The position numbers were made by a program, and so were the translations under genes. DNA of 52,742 nt from a virus. Position 1 is the first letter of the stretch; each line of letters opens with the position of its first letter. Shown in pieces: positions 8,901-32,110 of the stretch. The DNA lies in IMG/VR virus record IMGVR_UViG_3300025141_000137, positions 1 through 52,742 of that record; one strand, written 5' to 3'. Below the pieces are notes generated by a model, which was not told where the DNA came from, ran no database searches, and saw nothing but the letters and a program-made list of their open reading frames with translations.

Positions 8901-11900
8901 GTGCCCCCAGCCTGACCAGATCGCCCCAAACCTCCCCCGACACCTCGGCTGGCGCGTACTTTGGGTATGCCTTGATCAGAACGCTCTGTGCCTTCTGTGG
9001 ATCCCAGGTGAGAAGCTGCTCCTCACCCGGCCCCCAACGGCCAACGCGCTTGAATGAGGCAGCGATAGCCTTGCCCGCCACGATCTGAGCGCCTTTCTTG
9101 TAGACCGCCCCGATTGCATTGAGTTCATCCCAAGAGGTCGTGGCTCCTCTCCAGCCCCCGTACCGCTTCTTGATGTACTTGTTGTGCATGAGCATGGAGT
9201 CGATCACGGCCTGCATCGCAGCGACTGCCCGGGGCTTGAGCTCCTCGGCGTGCTTGATTTTCAGCCCGAGTCTGCCGACCTCTTTTATGCTCTTCTGAAG
9301 GTCAGCTATTGACTTGCTGGAGGCTCGCTCTGCCTTGGTAAGCCCCCTCTGGGCTTTGTTGTAGGCAGTCCTGGCCTTCCGGGCCTTCTTCTCAGCCGCA
9401 CGGGCTTCAACAAAGAACCCACGGATAAGGCCGCCCTTTTTGAGGTCCTCTTTTGCTGTTTCAAGCATGGCCCTTTGGAGCCCCAACTCCTCGATCTTCT
9501 TGCCGACCTCTAGGTCGAACCAATGCTCCGCGCTCTTCACACTACCGTGAGACGCAGTAATACGGGTCGTAAGCTCTGGGGAGACCCGCACCGCGCCTGT
9601 CTGTACTCTCCCGGCTACTCCTGCAACCTCAGCTTCCAGTTTGCCTACTTTCGTGCCTGCCTTAGCGATCTCCTTCCGTGCGTACAGGCTCGCCTGTAGC
9701 CGCAAGCTGCCACGGCTCGGGTCGAGGCCAGCCTCTTCGGCCCACTTAGGGAGGGGCCCCAAGTATTTGTCCACGATGCGTTGAGCATCCCCGATGAAGC
9801 CTGGACCATGGGGGGCGAACCCCGTCTCTCCGAACTTGAAGATGTTATTGACCCTGTCAAGACGCGCTTCGCCCCACCCGGCCGCCCGTGGGCCTGGAAT
9901 GTTGGGGTTGAAGCCGGCGGGATCTCTCTTGAGAGCCTTTATCTCTGCGCGAATCTCCGCCCGTAGGGCTTTCTGCTCAGCCTCGTAGCCCCGCCCTTGG
10001 GCTGGAGTCAGAGGGGCTTCGATTTCATCGGCCCTCGCCGCCCAGAGAGATTCTGTTTTCTTGGCTTCTTCGAGGGACTCTTCCAGGGCCTTGAGCCGCA
10101 GACCCACCGCCCCCTCCGGGGCTGCCTTGGGGGCCCCAATCTGCCTCAGGACGTTCGATGTCTCCCCCTCCGCTGTCAGGATGCGGACGATGACGTCCCC
10201 ATCCTCTCTGACCCGAGCCGCTGCAATGTGAGGGGCTCCCCCCACGGCTGGGATTTCCCCAGAGAGCTTGATCCCCCCCTGGACCATGGCTGCAATCTCA
10301 GGGATCTCCTCAAGAGCCTCAAAGTGTAGAGCGCGGGCCTTGTCGAGCGCGAGCTTGGCCTTCTGCCCCTTGATCTCCAACGCTATGATTTCCTGTTTGA
10401 TCCGCTTCAACTGCGCGTTGACCTTCCTCTGGGCCTTCTGCCCTGACGTGCCGATCTCTTCGAGGTCCTCGGCCTCTTTGAGGAACTCCAGCGCTTCATC
10501 GGCTTCGGACTTCCGAGCCAGGAGGGTCAGTTCCGCTTTCTCCAACTCCTTTGCGGCAACAGCTACATCATTCTCCCTCCGGAACTTATCCATCGTGGTG
10601 GCGTCTACCCCCTTGGGGTCGCCTCCCTTAGCCTCCGGGGCGTGCTTCCTGATGTAAGCCTCTTCCCTGGTCGCCCGGTCAAGTCTGAGAGCACCGAGTT
10701 CCTTGTTAGCGGCTTCGACCTTCCGCATGACTTCTGCAGAACGTGCTTCGATCTCTCCAGCAACCGCATGTTCAAAAGCCTGCCGAACCTCGGGGGCTTC
10801 TGAGTTACGCATCGTCCGCATGAACTCGCGCCCAGAGGCTTTGCCTGCCTCGTAGGCGTTGAGCCCTTCCTGCCCGATGGCCGCTTTCGCCCCCATGCGA
10901 GAAGTCTCGGCGTAGACCTTGCCGATCCGTGCGCCTGCACCAGCCACACCGAGGGAGAGGGAGATGGGGTCGGGCTCAATGAGGATGAGGGGAATGGCGA
11001 TGGATGCTCCAACCGACTTCCTCATCCAGAGCGGAGCCTTCCCATCCTCGTAGATGTAGTTGAGGTAGAGGTCTCCCAACTGGGGGAGTACCTGGAAGAT
11101 GTCTGCGCCCCGTCGGACCTCCTCGATTGTCCGCTCGTGCCCCCAACTCTCTCCCGTCCGGATCATTGCAGCGAGCCCGGTTGTGGGGGCAAGCCGCCCG
11201 AACTGCGACAGGGCACCCTCCATCTTGAGTTCGCCCGGGGTGAGAATCCCACCCTCAGTCCAGGTCACGGGTCGCATGACCGCAGCAAGAGGCCGAATCA
11301 CTGCCGGGAGCTCCATGATCTCAGCGGTAACGTCCGTACCGTAGGCGTCTACCCAGGGGACGCCCCGATAACGGTTCACAGCCTGGGCAAAAGCGGCGGT
11401 GGAAACGGACTCGGCCTCGGCTTCCAGCCAGCGCTTCTGGACGTCAGACGCTGTCCTCCACTCGATGCTGTGTACCCGAGCGAGATGCTGCACCGTCTCG
11501 CGGAAGAGCTTTTCCTTGTACCCCTTGTAGTCAATGCCCGTTCCGCCTCCGGCCAAGGCCACCAGGGGCAGCGCGGTGTCAACTCTCTTGATGACCGGGT
11601 GTGTGTAGGTCTGGTGCCAGATCCCCCTTTTCCTGGCTCCCTCGGCTGCAAGGACATGGCGGGCGGGCGTTGACGCCGCACGGACATACGTGCTCTCCCA
11701 GACCCTTCGGACGGCTTCCTCGTCGTCAATCTCCTCGGGCTTCAGGTAGCCCTGCCGGACAAGATCCTGCCGCCTCTCCTTGGAGGGCATCTCAAACTCA
11801 GCCGAGTAGAATGCCCGGATGTTTGCCCGCTGTGAGGGTTGTCGGAGAGCAAGACTGGCCTCCTGTGCCGCGCTCATCGGAGGCTCATGGGGCGAGACCT

Positions 11901-12084
11901 GTGCTCTCATAATCGGCGGTTCATAGAGGGGCTCAGCAGGCTCTGGCCTCGCCTTTGGAGTCTTGTATACGCGGTTGGGATCAGGCTCCCAGTTGAGGAA
12001 CTCCTCTGGGGACATGGCATAGGGAGTCCGTGACTCCTTGCGCTCAGGGGTTCCCTCTTCAGGGGTATCGACAGGCTCTGCCAC
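5977..12084 (-). CDS. Giant internal virion (DNA ejection) protein, T7 gp16-position (2035 aa)
   Basis: This is the largest gene in the window and the last of three consecutive genes in the T7 gp14-gp15-gp16 order. The N-terminus is proline- and glutamate-rich. Hydrophobic stretches appear near residues 170-185 and 350-385 (GASIAIPLILIEPDP). Very long coiled-coil regions follow (about 430-620 and 850-960, rich in A, E, K, L, R). The C-terminal third is globular and tryptophan-rich (VAVPNVRYWTNNIVGDF, later LWIVRMIPFYRFWRLAMK). I see no clear transglycosylase, protease or polymerase motif. Such proteins are packed in the capsid and extend the tail across the envelope during DNA entry. The role rests mainly on gene order and size; T7 gp16 has about 1300 residues. 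Confidence 0.6.
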   Translation of the reverse strand: MAEPVDTPEEGTPERKESRTPYAMSPEEFLNWEPDPNRVYKTPKARPEPAEPLYEPPIMRAQVSPHEPPMSAAQEASLALRQPSQRANIRAFYSAEFEMPSKERRQDLVRQGYLKPEEIDDEEAVRRVWESTYVRAASTPARHVLAAEGARKRGIWHQTYTHPVIKRVDTALPLVALAGGGTGIDYKGYKEKLFRETVQHLARVHSIEWRTASDVQKRWLEAEAESVSTAAFAQAVNRYRGVPWVDAYGTDVTAEIMELPAVIRPLAAVMRPVTWTEGGILTPGELKMEGALSQFGRLAPTTGLAAMIRTGESWGHERTIEEVRRGADIFQVLPQLGDLYLNYIYEDGKAPLWMRKSVGASIAIPLILIEPDPISLSLGVAGAGARIGKVYAETSRMGAKAAIGQEGLNAYEAGKASGREFMRTMRNSEAPEVRQAFEHAVAGEIEARSAEVMRKVEAANKELGALRLDRATREEAYIRKHAPEAKGGDPKGVDATTMDKFRRENDVAVAAKELEKAELTLLARKSEADEALEFLKEAEDLEEIGTSGQKAQRKVNAQLKRIKQEIIALEIKGQKAKLALDKARALHFEALEEIPEIAAMVQGGIKLSGEIPAVGGAPHIAAARVREDGDVIVRILTAEGETSNVLRQIGAPKAAPEGAVGLRLKALEESLEEAKKTESLWAARADEIEAPLTPAQGRGYEAEQKALRAEIRAEIKALKRDPAGFNPNIPGPRAAGWGEARLDRVNNIFKFGETGFAPHGPGFIGDAQRIVDKYLGPLPKWAEEAGLDPSRGSLRLQASLYARKEIAKAGTKVGKLEAEVAGVAGRVQTGAVRVSPELTTRITASHGSVKSAEHWFDLEVGKKIEELGLQRAMLETAKEDLKKGGLIRGFFVEARAAEKKARKARTAYNKAQRGLTKAERASSKSIADLQKSIKEVGRLGLKIKHAEELKPRAVAAMQAVIDSMLMHNKYIKKRYGGWRGATTSWDELNAIGAVYKKGAQIVAGKAIAASFKRVGRWGPGEEQLLTWDPQKAQSVLIKAYPKYAPAEVSGEVWGDLVRLGAQDLTKAQAAQIQDIISNTVMVIETKRATEATRVVGAMIWGSWQDLGVASRGDRLQKVGAYIKQLRRKTDYVEANVGAVGEGMADGLRLFENTLDLAQKEVFEVTSRAKNPLQVLRDYIDKPLTEISLKEGKSLLQVLLKGELVWDAGLRGIASASYRDPAEVADFLFRATTKREGALKQVQNAVAEEGLVDIASIEKLVGDLTDEGLVHALSGLGEVNLMIKTLGYAWVATGTKAAPRSEALLRSFAIDLIKKGEGTFDDFTMEMKKRTLAVFGDVASDEDGVRKSAMAVLAGVAHDRLGTHVKQMAGGLITMDEGRQLNRVLSGETTHLGSEGLEAAARASVKMGLPFTEDVHRIVQNGQKIQRKLVEIGENVIVPKALMDAVEESYRGYVKDLTALARLPTDQPVLGIDFTSELISAWKVSTITGVAVPNVRYWTNNIVGDFSQMWAEVGVARSGLLSFQNVLTNFGAPGRRFQEVLLNAAEGLDKAGRKAGLPSVTEVFFNPALGRFFRGEDGFFVSKGNRVTQFSEARKWLTDDGILDTFVHEEVLKYLTSSRLVNSPFMETFKKAKGWQRSLSEQASIVQQRQRSAFYLDLIQRGATRAEAKKRTLSALYDWKHGLARKEMDLWIVRMIPFYRFWRLAMKQATGAAIEPFTRPAGEYMARALTGRTRLARARQQVAITSGLPDLFFGGDPDEAIGHAEQMDELYKRMYPRWMDSRAILGAAGASTAKRQWLRDNLGKEATHTAYILPPFTMLDSFAMANAGLTLMTWAYEKAAPWRDPSERPDEMDAMAFEPLLGMTFPPLEMAFRWVGDRMGLALSYSNRSDYRTLTPAEERILGRFEKSRALMIPDEDTGKMKIPVWAHLMMRTVPVLGTQAPYLAGGVATNPYMESGGSLLNPLTYVPKNRAAWEYAFRYYTRFGAEYHYDAPKQAEYELKALAEKMSRSPHREELAPEHTRLPEERRYPLPPDVK

Positions 12085-21126: not shown

Positions 21127-22206
21127 CTACGGGGTGTTGGCGCCGGTCACGGCACCGTTGCAACGAAGCTGATCGCAGTACAGTCCCATGTTCAGGACGT
21201 ACTCGTAACGCCACATGTCCTGCTCAGGGATCCGGATGGGACCACGGATTGAGAAATCACCCGCAGTTTCCATCGCGGCATCACCGCCCAACGTGTAGAG
21301 ATGCCACGAGGCACTGTGGATGAAGTAGATGACGCCATCCTGAGCCGCTGCGGCACCGAAACCTGCCGGGTTGATGGAGCGCTCCATGAAGAAGTCGGCT
21401 TCCAGGAAAGCAACGCCCTTCCGGATCATCGGAGGAGCCTTGTCGCCCTCAACCTTGACCACGCGAACCTGCTGGTCCAGATCGTCCAGGTAGTTCAGGT
21501 ACGAGGTCTGGTCACCGAGGAGCAAGTCCACGGGGCCCATGGTCTTGGCGCCTTCAGATGAGGCCAAGTAGTAAACCTGCTGCATACGCTGGCGGCCATT
21601 GGCAGCAAACGATGTGATGTCCGCGTACTGGTTTGACCAGCCGGCCAGACCGCCCGCAGCAGCGGGCTTGCCCAAGCCAAACACTGTGGTGTTCTGGGCT
21701 GCGGGAGCGGCAAACTCCATCACGCCCTGGCGGGCAGCACCCTGCGGGTTGTAGGTAGTGTCACCGTTCAGAGTGACGAAACCACCGACGCCCGCTCCAT
21801 TGCCCATGGCCATCTGAGTAGCAATGCGCTCATGGAAGTCGCTCAGTGCGAGCTCTGGGTATGCCTTGATGATCTTGGCCAGATCGTTCTCGCCATTTGC
21901 CTCAGCAAGATCCTTTCCAGGAACGTCGAATGCGTAGATGAGGCGGGGCGCGTAGGCATCGCCTCGGGAAGCATTCTGCCGACGTCCACCAGCGATAACC
22001 TCGGAGCCCGTGAGGACCTGAGTCACCTGCCCGGGACCATCCGTGACGACCACGAACTCGCGGTAGGGGCCCTTGAGGGAGCCTCGGTCAATGTTGCCCT
22101 TGGTGACAATCCGCTCAAGGATTGGGTGCCAGAGGGTAAACAGTTCGGAATAGCCCGGCGCCAAGTCTTGGAGCGCGGTAGCAACAACATCTGGAGAGAT
22201 GGGCAT
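21127..22206 (-). CDS. Major capsid protein (359 aa)
   Basis: The gene lies directly after the scaffold gene and before a decoration-like gene, with AAAAGGA upstream of the ATG. The mixed alpha/beta sequence has the feel of an HK97-fold coat protein: an N-terminal helical arm, a long extended loop (GPYREFVVVTDGPGQVTQVL), a spine-like helix (DFHERIATQMAMGNGAG) and a C-terminal part (IPEQDMWRYEYVLNMGL). It has no N-terminal protease-cleavage domain, so a separate scaffold is used. Fold assignment is inferred from context and length. Confidence 0.75.
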   Translation of the reverse strand: MPISPDVVATALQDLAPGYSELFTLWHPILERIVTKGNIDRGSLKGPYREFVVVTDGPGQVTQVLTGSEVIAGGRRQNASRGDAYAPRLIYAFDVPGKDLAEANGENDLAKIIKAYPELALSDFHERIATQMAMGNGAGVGGFVTLNGDTTYNPQGAARQGVMEFAAPAAQNTTVFGLGKPAAAGGLAGWSNQYADITSFAANGRQRMQQVYYLASSEGAKTMGPVDLLLGDQTSYLNYLDDLDQQVRVVKVEGDKAPPMIRKGVAFLEADFFMERSINPAGFGAAAAQDGVIYFIHSASWHLYTLGGDAAMETAGDFSIRGPIRIPEQDMWRYEYVLNMGLYCDQLRCNGAVTGANTP

Positions 22207-22274: not shown

Positions 22275-23207
22275 CTACCTCCCACCTTTATGCACGCGAA
22301 GTGCACGTCGGGAGGCTAAAGCTCGCATTTCGTCCAGGCTTTTGGCGTCAGAAACTGTGGGAGAACGCACCTCTGGACGGGTATCCGTGGTGGCTCCATT
22401 GGTAAGTCGAGCAGCCGGCCGTGGCTGAGATGCGGCCTTCCTGGCGGTATCTGTGGCAGTCTTGACTTGTTCCTTCTCGTAGAGATCCCGGATCTTGTCG
22501 CGCTCATCCAGCTTTGACTGGAGATCCCGCTCTTTCGCGTCAGCCTGGGCAATGCGGAGCGCGTACTTATCGGACACGCCGTCTTTCTTGGCCGCAACTG
22601 CCAGCTTGAGCGTTTCTTCTGAGAGATCGAGTAGCTGGACTGCAACCTCTGCGTCCCAACTCCCCAGATCGCCTTCGGGGTCCAGGAGGTTCTTGAATCT
22701 CTCGCGCTTCTCGGGGTCTTCCTTGATGTCCCCGTGTCGGTCCCAGAAGTTGTCAGCGTACTCCCGGGCCATCAGTCCCTGGAAGTTGTTGTACTCCTCC
22801 TGCAAGGATTTCAGGTCCTCCCCAGCTTTTCCGTACTGAGCCTTGTACGCGTCGAACTCCCTGCGGAGCGTGTCCCGTTCACTGCTCAGGGAGCGGACCC
22901 GAGGATCCTCCTGCTCACGGATAATGGCGCTGTAGACATCCTGGAGATCCTTGAACTCCGCAGCCCGAGCCTCAAAGTCCTTGTTCAGGTGCGAGTGGAT
23001 CTTCCCACCGGATTCCTGGAGGTGGTCGGGGAGAGCGTCTACTTCGCCGCTCCAATCGTCCCAACCATCCCAAGAGGTGGAGGAGTCGGCAGCAGCTACA
23101 CCGGACGGGGATGCAGAGGCCGAAGCCTCGGGCACACCGCTGCTTTCTCCTCCAGAAACGGGGGCAGAGGCTTCTGCTGAGGGAGCTACAGGCGTTCCGT
23201 CATCCAC
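22275..23207 (-). CDS. Scaffolding protein (310 aa)
   Basis: The gene is immediately upstream of the capsid gene. The N-terminal 60 residues are Ser/Ala/Pro-rich and disordered, and the middle is charged and coiled-coil (about 75-260, DTLRREFDAYKAQYGKAGED). The tail is basic (SLDEMRALASRRALRVHKGG). This is the standard design of phage scaffolds, whose basic C-terminal helix binds the coat. The last 17 residues match those of the next upstream gene's product (8 identities without gaps) and contain the MRxxAAxRAL-type motif found in several neighbours. Confidence 0.75.
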   Translation of the reverse strand: MDDGTPVAPSAEASAPVSGGESSGVPEASASASPSGVAAADSSTSWDGWDDWSGEVDALPDHLQESGGKIHSHLNKDFEARAAEFKDLQDVYSAIIREQEDPRVRSLSSERDTLRREFDAYKAQYGKAGEDLKSLQEEYNNFQGLMAREYADNFWDRHGDIKEDPEKRERFKNLLDPEGDLGSWDAEVAVQLLDLSEETLKLAVAAKKDGVSDKYALRIAQADAKERDLQSKLDERDKIRDLYEKEQVKTATDTARKAASQPRPAARLTNGATTDTRPEVRSPTVSDAKSLDEMRALASRRALRVHKGGR

Positions 23208-23638
23208 TATTTGCCCCCGTAGTGCTTGGAGAATGCCCGCTTTGCTGCGCTATTACGCATCGTGTGAGGGTCGAAACCGAATGCCTCGGCGCCACCCATG
23301 GGCTCTTCTTCCCCTTCTTCCTCAGGTGCCTCTTCTTCTGGGGCGCCCTCTGACTTGGTAAGCTCAAACCCGTATTCCTGGAGCCAGGAGACAAGCTGTC
23401 CTGCATCGCCAGGGCCGTGCTCCTTGATCGCTGCTTCCAGAGCAGCCTCCGGAGTGTCGTAGCTTTCCTTGGCAGGAGCCTCCTCTTCTGGGGCTTCCTC
23501 TTCTTCCTGCTCAGCCTCTTCCATGGGAGCCTCTTCTGCCATCTCGGGCATTTCGCCCTCGTGCATCTCTTCCATGGAATCCTTCTCCTTCTCAGACTTC
23601 TTGCCGCGCTTGGGCGCAGCGGAAGCAATGATCAACAT
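23207..23638 (-). CDS. Acidic protein with scaffold-like C-terminus (143 aa)
   Basis: ATG at 23638 follows GGGAG; the stop shares a base with the scaffold start. The sequence is dominated by Glu-rich low complexity (EEAEQEEEEAPEEEAPA, about 35-55, and a second block near 100-112) around a small folded part (TPEAALEAAIKEHGPGDAGQ). It ends MRNSAAKRAFSKHYGGK, which lines up with the scaffold tail. It may be an auxiliary scaffold or internal protein using the same coat-binding site. The acidity resembles capsid-maturation or DNA-mimicking proteins, but function is unknown. Confidence 0.55.
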   Translation of the reverse strand: MLIIASAAPKRGKKSEKEKDSMEEMHEGEMPEMAEEAPMEEAEQEEEEAPEEEAPAKESYDTPEAALEAAIKEHGPGDAGQLVSWLQEYGFELTKSEGAPEEEAPEEEGEEEPMGGAEAFGFDPHTMRNSAAKRAFSKHYGGK

Positions 23639-23660
23639 GGGGGCTCCCTACAGAGAGTTT

Positions 23661-24089
23661 CTACCGGACCACCTTTGGGGTGTCAAGACCAGCTTTCAAT
23701 ACGTGCTCACGATTTTTCTCGCGCTTCCTCGCCTGTTGCTTGTGCCTCACATCACGGTAGCCCTCACTTCGAGCCGCCGCATCGCAGGAGTTTCGGACGT
23801 CGTCGTAATGGTCCGTCCATTCACGGTCGCTCTTGTCCACCACCTCGCGCCCCGGGTGCTTTGCAAAGTACCGGCGCATCTCTGAGTTGGACGTGAACTC
23901 CTTCCCAAGCTGGTTCATGGAGACGGGCCGGGTAGACGTGGCACCAACTGTCCTGATGGGGTGGAGGATCGTCCGAGCTCCTCCCCCACAGGTGGGACAA
24001 GTCAGCCCGTGGTTTTCGTACTCCCGGAGGCTCACGATGTCCTCGAATCGCCCGCAGTCCAACTCCACGCACTCGCCTTCATAGAGCAT
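23661..24089 (-). CDS. Zinc-ribbon protein (142 aa)
   Basis: Two cysteine pairs, CVELDC at residues 7-12 and CPTC at 31-34, form a zinc-ribbon-like N-terminus of the FmdB-like kind often found in phage structural operons. It is followed by RTILHPIRTVG. The rest is charged and helical with a basic end (QQARKREKNREHVLKAG). ATG at 24089 overlaps the stop region of the 51-aa gene. A regulatory or assembly role is possible. Confidence 0.55.
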   Translation of the reverse strand: MLYEGECVELDCGRFEDIVSLREYENHGLTCPTCGGGARTILHPIRTVGATSTRPVSMNQLGKEFTSNSEMRRYFAKHPGREVVDKSDREWTDHYDDVRNSCDAAARSEGYRDVRHKQQARKREKNREHVLKAGLDTPKVVR

Positions 24090-24245
24090 CTACTTCTTCC
24101 CCTTGGGCTTCTTGAGCTTCCAACCCCTGTTGTGCAGAGCCAGGACCTCAGCGAGGATCTCGTCCATGGTGAGGGGGCCGCTCTTCTTGGCCGGAGCCTT
24201 CTTTGCGGGGGCTTTCTTTGCTGTCGTCTTCTTCTCGGTAGCCAT
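24090..24245 (-). CDS. Lysine/alanine-rich histone-H1-like small protein (51 aa)
   Basis: The start ATG at 24245 is behind AGGA; longer in-frame starts lie inside the upstream gene. Residues 2-22 are a run of AKKAPAKKAPAKK repeats like the tails of histone H1 or bacterial HU-type proteins. A short helix follows (TMDEILAEVLALHNRGW), with a basic end. It probably binds DNA electrostatically, perhaps inside the capsid. The role is inferred from composition. Confidence 0.55.
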   Translation of the reverse strand: MATEKKTTAKKAPAKKAPAKKSGPLTMDEILAEVLALHNRGWKLKKPKGKK

Positions 24246-24253
24246 GATCAGTC

Positions 24254-25726
24254 CTATAGTGGGCGGTGTCGAGGTTTGGCGAGGGCGCGGATTTGTTCCT
24301 TGGTCGGCCACTGTTCGGCAGCCTCGTAGGTTGCTTCTGCTTTCTGTCGAGCCGCCAGAGCACCTCGCTCAGTCATCAGAGCAGAGTGGAGAGGTTGGCT
24401 CAAGACGCCTTCCCGCAAGAGTTGGTTGGCCTGAGGGGGGTGTGCTCTCAGCCACTCAAGCCCATGCGGGGAGAGGTCCCCAGCCTCCAACGGGCGCGGC
24501 TTTTCAAGGCCATGGAGGGCGAAAAATCGAATCTGCTCGGTCGGGTCCGTGATCTTCGTGTAGTTGTAGGCTGCCAGCATGGGAATCGCCAGACCAGCCT
24601 CTATAGCCTCCGCCATCACCAACCAGGGCCCCACATAGGCCGTCTTCATGGCAACCTTGCCGATCTTCTTGAGTTGCGCCATCTTGGTATCAGCAGACTT
24701 GGCCATGTCATATCCATCAAAGGCAGCATCAAGCGCCTCATCCATGACCCCGACACCCTGAACGGCCGGGTCATTGCCAGTCGGATACCAACCCAGTGTC
24801 CGACTCTGATGCAGGTCCCCGTATAAGCCTTGTGCTGACACTTGTGAGGGGGCCCGAGCCTGATCATACGCATTCGCAGCCCGATCAAACTCATCAGTTG
24901 CCTTCTGGAGGTCCTCCATGATCGATGGCATGGCTCCCCACTGGGCGCTCAGACGCGCTGGTGCCGTGCGCTCCAGTGGACCCAGAGGTGGCCCAAACCT
25001 GCGGGCTGCTTGTCTATATCCGTGTTCGGCCCGCTGAAGCTTCTGTGCCGCTTCCCTCAGCTCAGCATCAGAAGCCAGCCGAGTGAGACCAGGATCTGGC
25101 CCGAACTGGTGAGCTTTCTTGCTGTGCCTCATCTCTTCGGGAAGCTTAGCGAGCGACTCCTCCCGGAGGAGAGCCGCATCTGCCATATAGTCCGTACCCC
25201 CCGGAATCTCTGAAATATCAGGGATGACATCCAGATCTGCCAGGGCATCGCGCATGACCCGCTCCCCAAACTCCCTCTCAATGTAAGCGTCTTGAGCCCC
25301 TTTCCAGGCTTGACCTCGTCGATGAGCCAAGTCGAGATCAGAGACCATCTTGGCCTCTCCCGCCATCCGAGCTTTCCTCGCTGATTGCTCCTTGGGGGCA
25401 CGGACCGCGGCCCCTAAAACCTCTGCGGGAGCGTCGATTCCAGCAATCTGCGCCATCCCGGCCGCCGCAGGAAGCCCCCATGACGCCGTGTACAGGCCCA
25501 GGGCTGCCTCACCTGACCCCTTTTCTGTGACTGGAATGGGAGCGACACCCCCGAGGGCTGTCTTGAAATGCTCCCAAGGACGAGCAGCCAAGGTAGCGGC
25601 AAGGCGCTCTTCCTGAGTTTGATTCCGCTGTTCCTGCTCCTTTGCGAGAGCCGTAGCGGCTGCTTCCTCCCGCATCTTCCGCATACTCTCCGAAGGATCT
25701 AAATCTACCCGTTCATCCCAAGCCAT
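24254..25726 (-). CDS. Putative internal or head-associated protein (490 aa)
   Basis: The large alanine-rich helical protein lies among small head genes. The N-terminus has the MREEAAATAL motif (residues 18-27) shared with neighbours. A coiled-coil-like helix (about 20-45), a glycine/alanine-rich middle and long helices near 225-300 (QKLQRAEHGYRQAARRFG) follow. A possible membrane-active segment appears at about 370-400 (VGPWLVMAEAIEAGLAIPML). It ends basic (AKPRHRPL). It could be packed inside the capsid and take part in DNA entry. No family is recognised. Confidence 0.5.
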   Translation of the reverse strand: MAWDERVDLDPSESMRKMREEAAATALAKEQEQRNQTQEERLAATLAARPWEHFKTALGGVAPIPVTEKGSGEAALGLYTASWGLPAAAGMAQIAGIDAPAEVLGAAVRAPKEQSARKARMAGEAKMVSDLDLAHRRGQAWKGAQDAYIEREFGERVMRDALADLDVIPDISEIPGGTDYMADAALLREESLAKLPEEMRHSKKAHQFGPDPGLTRLASDAELREAAQKLQRAEHGYRQAARRFGPPLGPLERTAPARLSAQWGAMPSIMEDLQKATDEFDRAANAYDQARAPSQVSAQGLYGDLHQSRTLGWYPTGNDPAVQGVGVMDEALDAAFDGYDMAKSADTKMAQLKKIGKVAMKTAYVGPWLVMAEAIEAGLAIPMLAAYNYTKITDPTEQIRFFALHGLEKPRPLEAGDLSPHGLEWLRAHPPQANQLLREGVLSQPLHSALMTERGALAARQKAEATYEAAEQWPTKEQIRALAKPRHRPL

Positions 25727-25735
25727 GATCAGTCC

Positions 25736-26032
25736 TTACTTGTTGTACTTCTTGCGGTTCTTTGTGCGAGATGTGGCCCGGAGATTCCCGGTTGCATTCC
25801 CACCGCCCTTTGAGAGGGGCGTCTTGTGGTCAACTTCGTTCTCGTCCCCAGGCTTCAGGTCCAGCTTACGACGGGCCTTGTTCCGAGTGCTGCGATTCTT
25901 TCGCTGCTCGGGCTTGGCATGGTACTCGTCGTACTCCTTGCGGTAGTTGCGCTTGCCCTTTTTCTTGCCCGAGGATGCGAGCGCTGAGCGGGCCGCACCG
26001 TTCCGCATCTCCGCCATGGTCTTGTACGCCAT
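25736..26032 (-). CDS. HNH endonuclease-like protein (98 aa)
   Basis: The start ATG at 26032 follows the TAG of the previous gene by two bases; a longer frame runs into that gene. After an N-terminal MRNGAARSAL motif the sequence is very basic (KKKGKRNYRKEYDEYHAKPE) and ends in a compact HNH-type core: EVDHKTPLSKGGGNATGNLR, then a basic NRKKYNK. Such small HNH proteins are common near phage terminase/portal genes and can assist DNA cleavage in packaging. The metal-binding histidine of DHK and the later Asn of GNL are visible. Confidence 0.65.
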   Translation of the reverse strand: MAYKTMAEMRNGAARSALASSGKKKGKRNYRKEYDEYHAKPEQRKNRSTRNKARRKLDLKPGDENEVDHKTPLSKGGGNATGNLRATSRTKNRKKYNK

Positions 26033-26034
26033 AG

Positions 26035-26217
26035 CTACTTCACGCTGTACTTGGGCTTCTGCTCTCGGCTCGCCTTCTCGGCTCGCTTCTTCTGCTCTCC
26101 CCACATCTCACTGAGCCTATCTTTGTGCCCCTGCTCAGAAGAAGCAGCGGGCTGCCCAAGGTCCTGCAGCAAGGTCTGCTTCTTTCGGTCGTCCATCGTT
26201 TGGAGGTCATTGGGCAT
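26035..26217 (-). CDS. Hypothetical charged protein (60 aa)
   Basis: ATG at 26217 is preferred (GGAG five bases upstream); an ATG at 26232 lies inside the previous gene. The protein is short, helical and highly charged (DDRKKQTLLQDLGQ, then RLSEMWGEQKKRAEKASREQ). Tightly packed between two small head-region genes. Function unknown. Confidence 0.5.
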   Translation of the reverse strand: MPNDLQTMDDRKKQTLLQDLGQPAASSEQGHKDRLSEMWGEQKKRAEKASREQKPKYSVK

Positions 26218-26219
26218 GA

Positions 26220-26516
26220 CTACTCCATCCAACCGACGTTGGGTTCGAGTTCGAGTTCCTCGGGGGGTGTGTGGGTGGGTGTCAGCGCTCTCTGAGCAGC
26301 ATTGTTCCGCATTTCTTCGAGAGACTGCGGGGCTTTGAAAGCTGGCGCTCGATCCTGAGCGGCCTGGGTCTCAAGCTCGTCCCCAGTGATGTGCTTCAGC
26401 GCAATGGCGCGGTCTGCCATGTTGGCAGCTTCAGCCCAGGCTTGGCTCGGGTCCATGCCATTCTGAATAGCGCGGGTTGCGTAGTCGTTGATGAACTGCT
26501 GACGGTCCTTGGCCAT
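26220..26516 (-). CDS. Small head-region protein carrying the shared MRNNAAQRAL motif (98 aa)
   Basis: The first 60 residues are helical (QFINDYATRAIQNGMDPSQA). Residues 65-78 read SLEEMRNNAAQRAL, nearly the same as the scaffold's SLDEMRALASRRAL. The tail is proline- and glutamate-rich. The gene follows the portal gene by three bases. The shared segment suggests a common binding partner, most simply the coat protein. No named family is recognised. Confidence 0.5.
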   Translation of the reverse strand: MAKDRQQFINDYATRAIQNGMDPSQAWAEAANMADRAIALKHITGDELETQAAQDRAPAFKAPQSLEEMRNNAAQRALTPTHTPPEELELEPNVGWME

Positions 26517-26519
26517 GGA

Positions 26520-28400
26520 TCATCCTTCGGGCTTTACGCCTGGGGGAAGAGGGAAGGGTGCTCCGCCAAACCCAGGTAGGGGGGCTGGGTGGCCTGCACC
26601 ACCCATTTCTGAGGGGATCTCCTGAGACTGGTCTCCTGTGGGGAGGGCCCCAGCCGCCGTCGTGTCCTCTCCGGGAGGGGGCGGAGGCCCACCCGGACCA
26701 GGAGGAGCCTGAATCGGTGCGGCTCCCTGAGCCATCTGGGCCTGAAGTTGCTCGGGGGGAACCAGGAGGTTCTCCATCTGGAGCAGTTCAAGCAGCTTCT
26801 TCATCAGCTTGACCTTGTCAACTGACGGGCTCTGGATCAGGACAGGCAGGAAGTTGGAGAGGTTCCGGAGTTGCGTGAGCCGGTTGTTCTCAGCCGGGCT
26901 GTACGCGCTGACCTTGTAGTCAAACTGGAGGGGGTCCTCTCCCAACTCGTTGAGCAGATCCCGAGCCGCCATGGACGCCCGGGTGACCTCGACAACCTCT
27001 GGCGTGGCATCTGTCAGCCGGATGGGGAGCATTGCATCGTCTGGGAGGAACTCCTCGTAGAGCCCTACGATGCTCTGAGCCATCCACTTCACGAGGTCAT
27101 TCACAGCAGTCTGGCGACGACCGTTCCGCGTGCGGGTAGCGGTGTCCGCAAGAGCAACCTCGGTGGCAACGTCCGTGACGCCCACCACACCTCGACTGTA
27201 CTGTGGGATGCCCAGGACAAACTCGATGACTTGGTTGAGCTTATCTCTCTGCTGCGCGAACTCGGGAGTCAACGACGGGCTCTTCGTGTAGCCCACGATG
27301 TCGTTGATGCTCGCGTTTGCCTTGCCCTTGATGGAGACGACCGAGCCCGGAGCTCCTCCGTCTCGAATCTGAGCCTTTGCTGCAGCAGGGTTATCGCAGA
27401 GCCCCTCGTTGATCAGCATCATTGGAATGGACGTCTGGGCGTGCCAGAGCATCAGGGTGTCAAGCTCGTTCAGCCGGGACAGCGCATTCCAGATGAGCTT
27501 GACGTCTGAGACTCCTCCGATGTCGTTGAGGTTGTCGTTGAACGTCAGCAGGTAGAAGGGGTTGCGGACGAACCGGTAGGGGAGTTCCCCCTTGAACAAT
27601 GGCGCCTCAGCATCTTCCAGGAAGTGGTAATACTGCCCTTCTCCTGAGAAATCGTAGACCTCGTAGACAGTGACCCATTCGAGAATGTCCCGAGCGGTCT
27701 CATTCATCAGTGAGCGATCCCGAGTAGAATCCCGGAGCCACTGAGGGTACGAGGCAAACCGTGCTGACGAGGCAACCTTCTCGTCGTAGATCGCCTCCTC
27801 AGGGAGGTAGGGGTACGGGTCCGCGTCCTCTGGCTTGGCGGGCTTTTCAGTCGCCCCTTTTGCCCGGCGGTTGAACTCGTCCTTGGTCAGAACGGTCACC
27901 TCGATAAGGTACCGAAGGTCAGACCAACGGCCTGCGCTCTGGTCGAACCAGACATACCGAGGATCTCTCGTGATGAAATCTGGAGAGTTCCGTCGGAAGT
28001 TCCAGACCGCCTTTATGAAACACCGGGGGTAGACACAGCTAAGGGTGGCCGCCCGCCAGAGAATCGTGTGCGCCTTGATGCGGTCGAGAGTGTCGTTGAC
28101 CAGGGCCTCTCGATACCGAGCCGCGTTGGCCATCGCCGGACGACGAGCCAGGACATTGACCTCAGGATTGGTCGGGCAGATATTGGCGACCGCCGTGTCC
28201 GCGAAGGCATAGGCGAAGTTCGTCTCCATGGAGAGTTCTTCCCCGGCGCCCCCTCCTCCGCTGCCCTGGGGTTGATCACCCTCCGGGCCATAGAAGTCGC
28301 CCATGTACGCGCCACGGTACCGATCCCAGCGGGCGGTCTCCCCCTGGGACTTGTTCTTGTGCGCCCCGATGAGTTCTCGGATCTGGGTAGGCTTCAGCAT
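26520..28400 (-). CDS. Portal protein (626 aa)
   Basis: Size, place after the terminase and before scaffold/capsid, and sequence features fit a podoviral portal. The N-terminus is helical (WDRYRGAYMGDFYGPEGD). The core contains FITRDPRYVWFDQSAGRWSD and DLRYLIEVTVLTKDEF, and a long helix has FVLGIPQYSRGVVGVTDVA. The C-terminus is proline/glycine-rich (GPGGPPPPPGED). Twelve copies would form the DNA channel at one capsid vertex. The start overlaps the stop of the upstream gene (ATGA). Confidence 0.75.
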   Translation of the reverse strand: MLKPTQIRELIGAHKNKSQGETARWDRYRGAYMGDFYGPEGDQPQGSGGGGAGEELSMETNFAYAFADTAVANICPTNPEVNVLARRPAMANAARYREALVNDTLDRIKAHTILWRAATLSCVYPRCFIKAVWNFRRNSPDFITRDPRYVWFDQSAGRWSDLRYLIEVTVLTKDEFNRRAKGATEKPAKPEDADPYPYLPEEAIYDEKVASSARFASYPQWLRDSTRDRSLMNETARDILEWVTVYEVYDFSGEGQYYHFLEDAEAPLFKGELPYRFVRNPFYLLTFNDNLNDIGGVSDVKLIWNALSRLNELDTLMLWHAQTSIPMMLINEGLCDNPAAAKAQIRDGGAPGSVVSIKGKANASINDIVGYTKSPSLTPEFAQQRDKLNQVIEFVLGIPQYSRGVVGVTDVATEVALADTATRTRNGRRQTAVNDLVKWMAQSIVGLYEEFLPDDAMLPIRLTDATPEVVEVTRASMAARDLLNELGEDPLQFDYKVSAYSPAENNRLTQLRNLSNFLPVLIQSPSVDKVKLMKKLLELLQMENLLVPPEQLQAQMAQGAAPIQAPPGPGGPPPPPGEDTTAAGALPTGDQSQEIPSEMGGAGHPAPLPGFGGAPFPLPPGVKPEG

Positions 28401-29188
28401 CAGCGCCCGCGGCCCCCACCACCATGGAACAAGCGCTTCCTCTCAGCTTCGGCCTCTGGAGGAGCCTGTGCTCCTGTCCCCCCGGCAGCCGGAGGTGCAG
28501 CCGCAACAGCCGCAGCTTTCTCCTTCCCACCCTCACGGGCGGCCTTCCGACGCTTGGAGATCTCAGCCGTGAGCCTTCCGAGCATGTCTTCCATGTCTTC
28601 CAGACTCGGCGTGCTTCCAGCAGACTCGGGAGGCGCCATTTCCGGGGTCTCGGGTAATAGCTCGACTGGGGGGTCAGCGGGAGGCATTTCACTGCTAATC
28701 CCCAAAGGCTGGGCTTGGTGCCCTCTTGGCGGCCCACCTGCGAGAGCCGGCTCCTCGGGGGGCTCCAAGTCTGGAGAGTCGATCTTTGGCTCTGCCTTGC
28801 CCGCCTCCGCAAGCTCCTTTCGGATTGCGGTGTAGGGGACGCTATCCATCGGAACGACGTACCCAGCAGGAACCCTCCCCTTGGGATCCACGAGGATGCT
28901 GATCTCCTCTGAGATGGGATCGAAGGCATAGGTGTAGCCTCCAAAACCCTCGTGCCGAATCGAAGTGGGAGAAGCTGCTGGCGCACCAACTGCAGGAGCA
29001 GCGGCCAACTCTGGCTCCGGAAGCCCCATGTCTGGGGGAGGGCCGGGCGCAGCCTCGGGCAAAGCCGCATCCATGCCTTCGGCCGTGGGCAGACTTGTGG
29101 GGTCTTGGCTCCATGCTCCAGCCACGGCACGCCGAGCCGCGTCCTGTCGAGCCTGAGCTTGGGGATCAAGGTCGTAATACTGAGGCAT
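28400..29188 (-). CDS. Putative disordered head/packaging-region protein (262 aa)
   Basis: The gene has AGGAGAG before ATG. The sequence is proline/alanine/glutamate-rich, with one small folded part near residues 75-120 (GGYTYAFDPISEEISILVD). The N-terminus has ARQDAARRAV (residues 13-22), like the shared motif of neighbours. The C-terminus is basic and glycine-rich (ERKRLFHGGGGRGR), recalling the HKGGR/HYGGK ends of the scaffold and the 143-aa protein. A virion-internal or assembly role is possible. Confidence 0.5.
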   Translation of the reverse strand: MPQYYDLDPQAQARQDAARRAVAGAWSQDPTSLPTAEGMDAALPEAAPGPPPDMGLPEPELAAAPAVGAPAASPTSIRHEGFGGYTYAFDPISEEISILVDPKGRVPAGYVVPMDSVPYTAIRKELAEAGKAEPKIDSPDLEPPEEPALAGGPPRGHQAQPLGISSEMPPADPPVELLPETPEMAPPESAGSTPSLEDMEDMLGRLTAEISKRRKAAREGGKEKAAAVAAAPPAAGGTGAQAPPEAEAERKRLFHGGGGRGR

Positions 29189-29211
29189 CGCTCACTCTCC
29201 TATCCAACAGT

Positions 29212-30132
29212 TTATCCTTGTGGAAACCAACCCTTCAGGGTGTCCATAAGAGACTTCTCGGGCGGGGGCGCTTCCACGTCTGTCGGCCAGGGGACGATCT
29301 CTGGTGGGGGGCCCACTCCAATAGACATCCAAGCATAGTGATCGAGCCAGCCGTTTCTCCAAGCCATCTCTCGATATTCTTTGTTGTGCTTGAGGATAGT
29401 AAGCCGGGCCTCGCCTCCGACGTCGGGCTCCTTGAGCTCCCACGCCTGAAGGGGCCTACCCTTTTCAGCCGCCTGCTCGTACAGGGGATCGCCCAAGCCT
29501 CCAACGATGGCGGGCCCCACACGTATGCCGTAGTCGAGCTTTGCCTTTTGCTTGTCGTCTAGAGCAGCAATCCGCGCAGAGAAGATCCCCTCCTCCTCTC
29601 TCTCTCCTCTCCACCGCGTTTTTTCCTCTTCTGGGCTAGGGCCTGCTTCTGTGGGGCGTAGAGGCTCGTAGCCCGCTATTTCAGCCTCTGCCTGCTGTGC
29701 GGCTCGATGGCCTTTCTTGGCCATTGCGATATCCTCGGGAATCTCAGGCCCGTACCACAGTTCTGGAGAGGCCGGGGGAAGCCCAGGGCCAATGGGTCCG
29801 GACCAATCCGGGCCGGGTTGCCCTTCCTTTCGGATCCACTCTCGCGGATAGAGTAGCTCATCAATAGCCGAGGAGGCGCCGGAAGTGGCCGGGGCGGCAG
29901 CCCGAGCAGACTCGGACGGGGAGCGCGTCTTCTTGGAAGCACCCTTCTTGGGAGCGGCCTTTCTCGTAGGCGCTGGGGCGGGAGCGGCTTCTGGGACGGC
30001 TGCTGGTTCCTCTGAGGCGAGGGCCTTCTTCGCAGCTTCCGCCCGATGCTCATGCCACGCCTTCCGGGCATCCTCACGCTCCGCCTGCTCTTCTTCTGGG
30101 GAGATGAATACCTCCCTTCTCCTGCGTCCCAT
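29212..30132 (-). CDS. Putative DNA-binding/head-region protein with H1-like segment (306 aa)
   Basis: The protein begins MGRRRREVF. It has RAEAAKKAL (about 30-38) matching the shared motif, then an Ala/Pro/Lys stretch like histone H1 (TRKAAPKKGASKKTRS, about 56-71). The second half looks folded, with tryptophan-rich parts (ELWYGPEIPEDIA, then WRNGWLDHYAWMSIGVG). It lies between the terminase and portal genes, so a part in packaging or an internal structural role is possible. Confidence 0.5.
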   Translation of the reverse strand: MGRRRREVFISPEEEQAEREDARKAWHEHRAEAAKKALASEEPAAVPEAAPAPAPTRKAAPKKGASKKTRSPSESARAAAPATSGASSAIDELLYPREWIRKEGQPGPDWSGPIGPGLPPASPELWYGPEIPEDIAMAKKGHRAAQQAEAEIAGYEPLRPTEAGPSPEEEKTRWRGEREEEGIFSARIAALDDKQKAKLDYGIRVGPAIVGGLGDPLYEQAAEKGRPLQAWELKEPDVGGEARLTILKHNKEYREMAWRNGWLDHYAWMSIGVGPPPEIVPWPTDVEAPPPEKSLMDTLKGWFPQG

Positions 30133-30152: not shown

Positions 30153-30407
30153 CTATCGTGAAGCGGGCGGAGTGGGCGAGGGGAAGTCTTGCGACTTCTG
30201 CATATCGTGAAGATCCGCCAGAGAAGGCCCCTCCCGAAAGACAATGGCCTTCTTGGGGTCGGCGTGGAATCGCTTCCAGTCTACTGTGAAGGGCCCGTAC
30301 TGAGCAGTCCAGAGGTTCGGGACCACGGCTGTCATCCCTTTATACGCGAGATGGTGGGCGTCCCTTTCTGGGAGGTAGACGATTTCAGCGTCTGCAGGTT
30401 GCTTCAT
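30153..30407 (-). CDS. Hypothetical protein (84 aa)
   Basis: ATG overlaps the terminase stop (ATGA). The protein is small and beta-rich at first (AEIVYLPERDAHHLAYKGMT, then VVPNLWTAQYGPFTVDWKRF) with a disordered proline-rich end. Its place directly after the large terminase is noted; a packaging accessory role cannot be shown. Confidence 0.5.
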   Translation of the reverse strand: MKQPADAEIVYLPERDAHHLAYKGMTAVVPNLWTAQYGPFTVDWKRFHADPKKAIVFREGPSLADLHDMQKSQDFPSPTPPASR

Positions 30408-32110
30408 TTCCGCCTCGTGGGGAGTCGATAGGTCAGCCGGGGAGCAGGCTTCTTGTCCCCCGCTATAGTAGCTCGATACTTCTGCTGCCGGTCATAGGGC
30501 ATTTCAGAAAAGAGCGCAGTCGAGTCAATAGGCGTGTGGGGAAAGGGGCGTTGGGGCAGCGCACGGGCTGCCTGGATTGCCATGAGGAGGGCCGAGACCT
30601 TGTCCCAGTGGTGCCGATCTCGACGGCGAGGGGATGGCCCTCCACGAACAAGCTCCAGACCAGCGCCCTCCTCGATCCGCTTGTCATTCTTGTAGGTCTG
30701 GAGTTGCTCCACCGTGTTCTTGTCATGGAGGATGAGATCGTCCAAGAGGGAGTCGATGAGGTGCCCGGTCATGCGATCCAGGCTCTTGGAGGTCGTGGTC
30801 AGCCCGGGTGTGAACTTCCTCTCGTAGAAGAGGTTGCCGTACTCAGCCTGATCGAGGAGAGACAGCACCGCCTGTCCAACACCATTGGACTCTACGGTGA
30901 CCAGTGCGCCGTTGTACCGCTCGGCTGCTCGTAGGATGTGCCGGTGGAAGGTCAACGGATCGACGTGGTCAGCAAAGCACGCCACCTGTTCCCAGTGCCT
31001 GTCGTAGACCTTGAGGACCTGGAACGAGGCGTGATCTCGTGCGGCATAGCCGGAGGGGTCAACACCAATCGCGTAGATAGCGTCCGACTTGGGAGCCTCG
31101 TACTCCATGTACGGCGCCTCCCAGGACACGAGCGGAGCGTCGATGTGCTTCTGGAGAGCCCGGGTTGGGATCGCAGCGTTGGTCGAGGAGATCCAACAAC
31201 CCACGTCATCAAAGGGGTACATGACGACAAAGCGCTCGGGATGCCTCCTGAGCTCAGCATCTTCCTGGAGAGCCAATCGTCGGAAGAAGAGATTGTCCCA
31301 GGTCAGCCCGTCCTTGTGGTACCGCTCGTACAGCCGGATCTCTTCCAGGTCCCAGACCGTGTCAGACGGGGGGACACGGGCATTCAGGAGCCCGTCCCAA
31401 AAAGGATAGAACCGAGCGAAGTGCCTCGCGTGGGGCTGAGACGTGGCCTCCTTCGCCATCAGGTAGTGCTCGTGCCAGGAACTGCCCCGCTCCCAGGGCG
31501 TTGCCTCAAACAGCACGAGCGCATTCTGCCGGTTTCGAAGGGATGGTGTAATGAGGAACATGGACCCTTCAAAGTCCGACCAGAGATGGCATTCCGAAGC
31601 GTGGAAGCTGTCCGGGCTCTGCCCAACACCCACAGCCCCAGACTCCGCAGAGAGCACGCGCATACGCCCACCGTGGAGAGGATCGAAGGACAACTGGCGG
31701 CTCTCTCGCTGAGAGACCGTGGGCGTGCGTAGCTGCTCAGGCCAGCGCAGATGCAAGTGGTGGATCCGCTTGTGCAGGTAGTCTGCCCGGTCCCGGGTAT
31801 CTGCGATGGTGACGTGGTCCCAGCCCGGGGTGTAGGCAGCCAACGGGTACGCTGCCATGTCAGCCGAAGTGGACTTGCCGACCTGACGAGATGCCAGGAT
31901 TGTGATCCACCGGGTATGCCCAGAGGGCGTCCGAGGGGGATTCGAGTAGTAGGCCAGGATGTCCTGCTGGAGCGTCCTGGTCAGATCCCCAGGGTTGTAC
32001 TTCTTGAAGCGTCCCGTGGCGAGATCGTGGACTTGCCCGTATGCCGGGAGAGAAGTGCTGGGTGTCTGGAGCGCCTTGAGAAGCCGCTGGGCCTGGAGAG
32101 GAGTCGTCAT
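30404..32110 (-). CDS. terL: Terminase large subunit (568 aa)
   Basis: The packaging motor ATPase/nuclease. A Walker A-type motif ASRQVGKST lies near residues 74-82, and a Walker B-type region near ASECHLWSDFEG. The RNase H-like nuclease domain shows AIGVDPSG (first Asp), VTVESNGVG (Glu) and HLIDSLLDDLIL (third Asp). It would cut concatemers and drive DNA into the head through the portal. The start overlaps the stop of the 78-aa gene (ATGA). No small subunit is recognised next to it. Confidence 0.85.
   Translation of the reverse strand: MTTPLQAQRLLKALQTPSTSLPAYGQVHDLATGRFKKYNPGDLTRTLQQDILAYYSNPPRTPSGHTRWITILASRQVGKSTSADMAAYPLAAYTPGWDHVTIADTRDRADYLHKRIHHLHLRWPEQLRTPTVSQRESRQLSFDPLHGGRMRVLSAESGAVGVGQSPDSFHASECHLWSDFEGSMFLITPSLRNRQNALVLFEATPWERGSSWHEHYLMAKEATSQPHARHFARFYPFWDGLLNARVPPSDTVWDLEEIRLYERYHKDGLTWDNLFFRRLALQEDAELRRHPERFVVMYPFDDVGCWISSTNAAIPTRALQKHIDAPLVSWEAPYMEYEAPKSDAIYAIGVDPSGYAARDHASFQVLKVYDRHWEQVACFADHVDPLTFHRHILRAAERYNGALVTVESNGVGQAVLSLLDQAEYGNLFYERKFTPGLTTTSKSLDRMTGHLIDSLLDDLILHDKNTVEQLQTYKNDKRIEEGAGLELVRGGPSPRRRDRHHWDKVSALLMAIQAARALPQRPFPHTPIDSTALFSEMPYDRQQKYRATIAGDKKPAPRLTYRLPTRRK

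Follow-up and report, generated by a model that had tools for sequence, protein, structure and literature searches.

A recurrent word in head-region proteins

We analyzed a short amino-acid word that recurs in the head-gene region of an uncultured phage, IMG/VR record IMGVR_UViG_3300025141_000137, taken at its full length of 52.7 kb (52,742 nucleotides; the window, designated G000). The late genes of the window lie on its minus strand in the order terminase, accessory, portal, accessory, zinc-ribbon, acidic protein, scaffold, capsid and tail-side genes, with the scaffold gene directly upstream of the gene for a predicted HK97-fold coat protein, as in the P22-type arrangement. A first-pass annotation, made from the letters of the sequence, had reported an MRxxAAxRAL-type word in at least seven neighboring proteins of this region and had suggested that it targets them to the capsid. 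We refer to the word as the tag and to the proteins that have it as carriers.

The words were found where the annotation had placed them, all seven on the minus strand, and a six-frame scan of all 52.7 kb confined the patterns to seven head-region open reading frames (ORFs; Table 1). The loose pattern [MAHL]R..A[AS]..A[LFV] occurs in 7 of the 61 called window proteins, against a mean of 0.108 and a maximum of 2 in 2000 rounds of shuffling, and the strict pattern MR..AA..A[LF] in 4 proteins, against 0.0045 in shuffled sequence. As judged by the profile described below, six of the seven proteins are carriers (scaffold, acidic, 490-aa, HNH, 98-aa and 306-aa proteins; 26–34 bits), among them the 306-aa protein, for which only a looser form had been claimed; the 262-aa protein, the other looser case, scores below 11 bits and was removed from the firm carriers as marginal. 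The final 17 residues of the scaffold and the acidic protein do align without gaps (8 of 17 identical), and the proposed nuclease among the carriers is recognizable as such by Pfam and phrog matches. The window carriers encode the tag with differing codons, which indicates that no recent DNA duplication has taken place.

Table 1. Tagged proteins, their tags and untagged reference proteins in the window
Feature	Position	Strand	Basis and remarks
Scaffold protein, 310 aa from GTG, 286 aa from a later start	22275..23207	-	Assigned by position, immediately upstream of the capsid gene, and acidic N-terminus
Scaffold C-terminal tag MRALASRRAL	22299..22328	-	Pattern and profile
Acidic protein, 143 aa, C-terminal tag	23207..23638	-	Directly upstream of the scaffold
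Acidic-protein tag MRNSAAKRAF	23231..23260	-	32.5 bits
490-aa accessory protein, N-terminal tag	24254..25726	-	27.8 bits; no Pfam family
490-aa protein tag MREEAAATAL	25646..25675	-	Pattern and profile
HNH endonuclease, 97 aa from ATG, N-terminal tag	25736..26029	-	Pfam HNH 3.4e-4; phrog_4590 2.6e-15; phrog_1035 endonuclease VII 2.3e-6
HNH protein tag MRNGAARSAL	25979..26008	-	28.7 bits
98-aa accessory protein, C-proximal tag	26220..26516	-	33.8 bits
98-aa protein tag MRNNAAQRAL	26283..26312	-	Pattern and profile
306-aa accessory protein, N-proximal tag HRAEAAKKAL at 30019-30048	29212..30132	-	25.9 bits
262-aa protein, marginal tag ARQDAARRAV at 29123-29152	28400..29188	-	Loose pattern only
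Major capsid protein, HK97 fold (predicted), presumed tag receptor	21127..22206	-	phrog_9953 major head protein 2.8e-6, full length; untagged in 72 homologues
Portal protein, untagged reference	26520..28400	-	phrog_156 9e-11; 0/66 homologues tagged
Terminase large subunit, untagged reference	30404..32110	-	phrog_2 6e-12; 0/46 homologues tagged

Distribution of the tag across the lineage

Relatives were collected from IMG/VR. A search with the capsid protein gave 18 loci, one of them 100% identical to the window, and a profile search gave 64 further loci at 57–71% identity; a third scan yielded almost no more, so that the lineage amounts to ~100 records in this database. When named phages were searched by tblastn, the capsid, the portal and one distant capsid found no match and the terminase found matches at 21–27% only; by this sequence comparison, a cultured close relative is absent among the named phages searched. 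A scan of genome contigs returned a single contig of a metagenome-assembled genome, which is probably phage, and no host was obtained.

Genes in the whole contigs of 13 relatives were called with a simple purpose-written caller, and a profile of 15 columns was built from this set. Extending the motif search in this way, as the first-pass annotation had advised, establishes that the tag is real: at ≥20 bits the profile gives 62 matches in the real proteins, 0.1 in shuffled and 0 in reversed ones. Run unchanged in six frames on the 64 new loci with a cut-off of ≥16 bits, it gives 96 matches, all 96 on the sense strand and upstream of the capsid gene, with 0 matches in 388 kb downstream of that gene and 0 antisense. 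Scaffold tails account for a match in 45 of the 64 loci and are orthologues of the training sequences; the remaining matches largely are not. The consensus, [ST]-[LMF]-x-[DE]-[ML]-R-x-x-A-A-[KR]-[KRN]-A-[LFM], spans ~15 residues.

The tag is the tail of the scaffold. In 80 of 80 loci the ORF preceding the capsid gene has the motif at its tail, and a profile made from scaffold tails alone detects non-scaffold proteins of the head region, with the 98-aa protein of the window as its top non-scaffold match (30.9 bits). Counted by gene class at 12 bits, the tag is present in 73/73 scaffolds, in 128/408 accessory genes upstream of the capsid gene (~31%) and in 2/358 other downstream genes. It is absent from the core head proteins (0/339), comprising the zinc-ribbon (0/70) and post-capsid (0/85) proteins and the portal, terminase and capsid proteins (Table 1). 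In the whole contigs, tagged genes make up 49/138 upstream of the capsid gene, 1/139 in the tail region, 12/103 at the end of the late operon, which in the relatives places them +17 to +25 kb from the capsid gene, and 1/144 among early antisense genes, the last a weak match. Neither in early proteins (1/144) nor in shuffled sequence (0.108 against 7 in the window) is the word as frequent as in head-region proteins; equal frequency there was the outcome that the first-pass annotation had named as contrary to a targeting role.

Proteins that share the tag are otherwise unrelated. With the tag masked, BLAST sorts the carriers into 52 groups, of which the scaffold is one and 49 are non-scaffold groups upstream of the capsid gene; the bodies of these 49 families have no detectable mutual similarity, although the independent families number at most 49, as BLAST may place strongly diverged relatives in separate groups. 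The acidic proteins encoded just before the scaffold, for example, form several groups yet look orthologous, and in distant relatives this position is likewise occupied by an acidic protein with a C-terminal tag.

Tags are concentrated at protein ends (79 C-terminal, 58 N-terminal, 14 internal). Of the 60 tags in carriers of at least 150 aa, 45 are no more than 30 aa away from an end, compared with 12.1 expected, and many tags stop 0–2 residues short of the C-terminus. Several proteins are tagged at both ends, including examples in L008 and L078 and the 792-aa protein of G009/L012. At L075:887-6600, five neighboring accessory genes with different bodies have near-identical N-termini of the form MAD-L[LM]-x-x-x-R, a sequence pattern that suggests recent spread of an N-terminal tag module.

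Most carriers have no known family, and a search of the carriers against NCBIfam gave weak, implausible matches only. Two carriers, in L054 (E 1.1e-16) and L058 (E 1.1e-15), are ART-PolyVal (PF18760) ADP-ribosyltransferases with N-terminal tags; PF18760 was not found in the window itself. Polyvalent proteins, including those with the ART-PolyVal domain, are predicted to be injected with the phage DNA, and the T4 protein Alt is an ADP-ribosyltransferase that is packaged and injected (PMC5512222). A carrier in L052 matches part of phrog_7348, and an HNH-like protein of G012, recognized by inspection of its sequence and lacking a Pfam match, has a weaker C-terminal tag.

A candidate procapsid-loading tag

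The helical nature of the tag, a linker preceding it and the HK97 fold of the capsid protein are supported by structure prediction. An AlphaFold2 (AF2) model of the window scaffold, computed with 51 sequences (mean predicted local distance difference test score, pLDDT, 88), consists of long helices, with a disordered linker at residues 243–252 (pLDDT <50) and a separate C-terminal helix at residues 267–283 (pLDDT ~88) that covers the tag. Two tag residues, R271 and A278, are among just 12 that are invariant in the 51 aligned scaffolds, and Foldseek finds weak similarity of the model to proteins named scaffolding protein. Compared by Foldseek, the model of the L012 capsid homologue (pLDDT 61) resembles PDB structures of phage capsids with the HK97 fold, and encapsulins as well. 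Near the N-terminus of the coat protein, D6 is invariant and E21 nearly so.

A tag that is always present on the scaffold, never on core shell, portal or terminase proteins, and otherwise at the termini of non-homologous accessory proteins, some of injected kinds, is the pattern predicted for a capsid-loading tag, and supports the targeting role first suggested. We consider it likely that the word is a transferable procapsid-loading tag, the scaffold's own terminal helix having been copied onto unrelated proteins. The tag would be an amphipathic basic helix of ~15 residues which, beyond the flexible linker, would anchor the scaffold to the inner face of the growing shell. Cargo with the same helix at either end would share or compete for the scaffold's sites and be enclosed together with the scaffold; after scaffold exit, it would stay in the head or go in with the injected DNA. 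We infer that the tag binds the capsid protein and that carriers are present in procapsids and virions and are injected.

The reasoning draws on P22, where the inner procapsid holds two C-terminal scaffold helices through R293 and K296, which face acidic residues in the N-arm of the coat (PMC9965877). By analogy with these helices, we expect the tag to attach the scaffold to the coat, and we expect other proteins that bear the helix to be enclosed as well. The P22 scaffold gp8 is likewise long and helical, has a basic C-terminal helix past a flexible part and is encoded directly upstream of the coat gene. The likeness to the tag is one of structure and gene order, and we know of no report that P22 ejection proteins share the scaffold tail. 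Unlike the carriers proposed here, those proteins need the scaffold for entry and are recruited through it (PMC8402733).

Several observations weigh against a loading tag directed to the coat. Firstly, the scaffold appears to be a scaffold by its position and predicted structure, without a family match. Secondly, a model of the scaffold tail and capsid protein of L012 as one fused chain, continued in frame through the intergenic stretch, gave no usable interface (pLDDT 61) and was used for the capsid fold alone. Thirdly, ~69% of the accessory genes upstream of the capsid gene lack a tag at the 12-bit level, and in L094 an ART-PolyVal protein and an HNH-like protein are both untagged, so the tag is not universal for plausible cargo. 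Finally, scaffold and cargo tags are no more alike within one genome than between genomes (890 of 5000 permutations reach the observed value); columns 4 and 6 alone stand out (p ~0.006 and ~0.02, 15 columns tested). Co-evolution between the scaffold tag and the cargo tags of one genome had been considered as evidence for a common receptor; it was not significant overall and was set aside.

The identity of the receptor bears on the alternative that we regard as the most serious, though unlikely, namely that the tag loads the procapsid via the scaffold, the portal or another core component and not via the coat protein. The tag receptor could be the scaffold core or the portal: coat, scaffold and portal are all compatible with the present evidence, the tagged scaffold could self-associate through its tag, the T4 targeting sequence acts through the core (PMC9026906), and the P22 ejection proteins depend on the scaffold (PMC8402733). 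Against this, the corresponding C-terminal helices of the P22 scaffold bind coat (PMC9965877), and in the AF2 model the tag is tethered at a distance from the coiled-coil body.

It is improbable that the helix is instead a DNA-, RNA- or membrane-binding element, for use after injection or in genome condensation, and that its presence on the scaffold is a coincidence of function. The motif is indeed basic and amphipathic, and most of the carriers encoded where the late operon ends are small, basic proteins; however, the scaffold is tagged in every genome, with R and A of the tag among its few invariant residues, and P22-type phages eject the scaffold before infection. In addition, a strongly acidic protein is tagged, and early DNA-acting proteins are not.

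We give very little credence to the word as a recognition site for a maturation protease. In T4-type phages, prohead proteases do cleave both scaffolds and internal proteins, at short motifs common to them, but no PF04586 protease was found in 13 genomes with a working control, and cleavage at the many tags 0–2 residues from the C-terminus would free almost nothing. PF03420 prohead proteases were also sought and none was found, in a search that had no working control and so leaves that family possible. Shared ancestry or composition, through duplicated modules or chance-alike Ala/Arg-rich helices, is just as hard to credit: some carriers within one genome are visibly related and phage head regions are commonly rich in Ala-rich helices, but the near absence of matches in shuffled and reversed proteins, the contingency counts with 0 matches among core head proteins of the same operon, the differing tag codons and the masked bodies that share nothing all contradict it. 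Past transfer of the tag by recombination is possible, and compatible with a loading tag.

If the tag does load the procapsid, a close functional parallel is the capsid-targeting sequence (CTS) of T4, which is shared by the variable internal proteins IPI, IPII, IPIII and Alt and loads the prohead (PMC9026906, PMC3012670). Both are short terminal sequences on otherwise divergent, fast-changing proteins, and the T4 set includes an ADP-ribosyltransferase and anti-defense proteins (PMC9026906, PMC3012670). The T4 sequence, however, is an N-terminal propeptide, removed by gp21 and described as core-targeting, whereas the tag is the scaffold's C-terminal helix, occurs at the N- or C-terminus and is accompanied by no recognized prohead protease; the two are likened by function, with no homology claimed. 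The SaPI protein CpmB enters the capsid by reusing the conserved RIIK motif of the 80alpha scaffold (PMC12409344), but it is a single protein of a satellite and alters capsid size competitively, whereas the motif here occurs in ~49 families encoded by the phage itself. Both principles are already known: a capsid-targeting sequence common to variable internal proteins from T4, and a scaffold motif reused in one further protein from CpmB. In searches of open-access literature we found no report of a scaffold tail that itself tags dozens of proteins at either terminus; most subscription papers lay outside this search. The tagged ART-PolyVal carriers resemble polyvalent proteins in lying in virion gene neighborhoods; in the part of that account considered here, packaging is deduced from gene neighborhood and domain fusions and a loading tag is not described (PMC5512222).

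We lean toward the broader view that the lineage uses the tag as an open address code, in which gaining the helix, at whichever end, is enough to make any gene product head cargo. Encapsulins have HK97-fold shells and take up unrelated cargo that has a short terminal peptide. The present system resembles them in both respects, the capsid model matching encapsulins, and differs in that encapsulins are non-viral and scaffold-less and their cargo peptide is not a scaffold tail; on balance, we would see in the address code a natural viral counterpart of their cargo-loading peptides.

Phage proteins that enter the head and are injected are usually identified by mass spectrometry alone. Should the tag act as proposed, dozens of uncharacterized proteins in ~100 uncultured genomes would be predicted virion cargo, including candidate enzymes of host takeover, and, were it an open address code, injected effectors and nucleases would become predictable from sequence alone. 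In engineered shells, the tag would serve as a loading peptide just as it stands. Borrowing the scaffold tail would also give phages a simple way to evolve new injected proteins.

Further carriers and neighboring genes

Large carriers of 759–1131 aa in L005, L007, L008, L009 and L012 have in common a domain with the words [FY][VI]HW[TSM] and EGD/EGE, as well as Gly/Ala-rich segments near the C-terminus; they have no Pfam match, and the shared domain looks like an uncharacterized effector-type domain. The tagged genes at the end of the late operon form a second cluster (G009/L028-L030, G010, G012, G003 and G004), whose products are mostly small and basic with net charges of +2 to +25 and are possibly packaged DNA-binding proteins. 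The late operon of the window also encodes a 2035-aa protein without a Pfam family (5977-12084, minus strand). The zinc-ribbon protein (23661-24089, minus strand; Zn_ribbon_8-like, weak), whose gene separates the accessory genes from that of the acidic protein, is conserved in nearly all relatives and never tagged.

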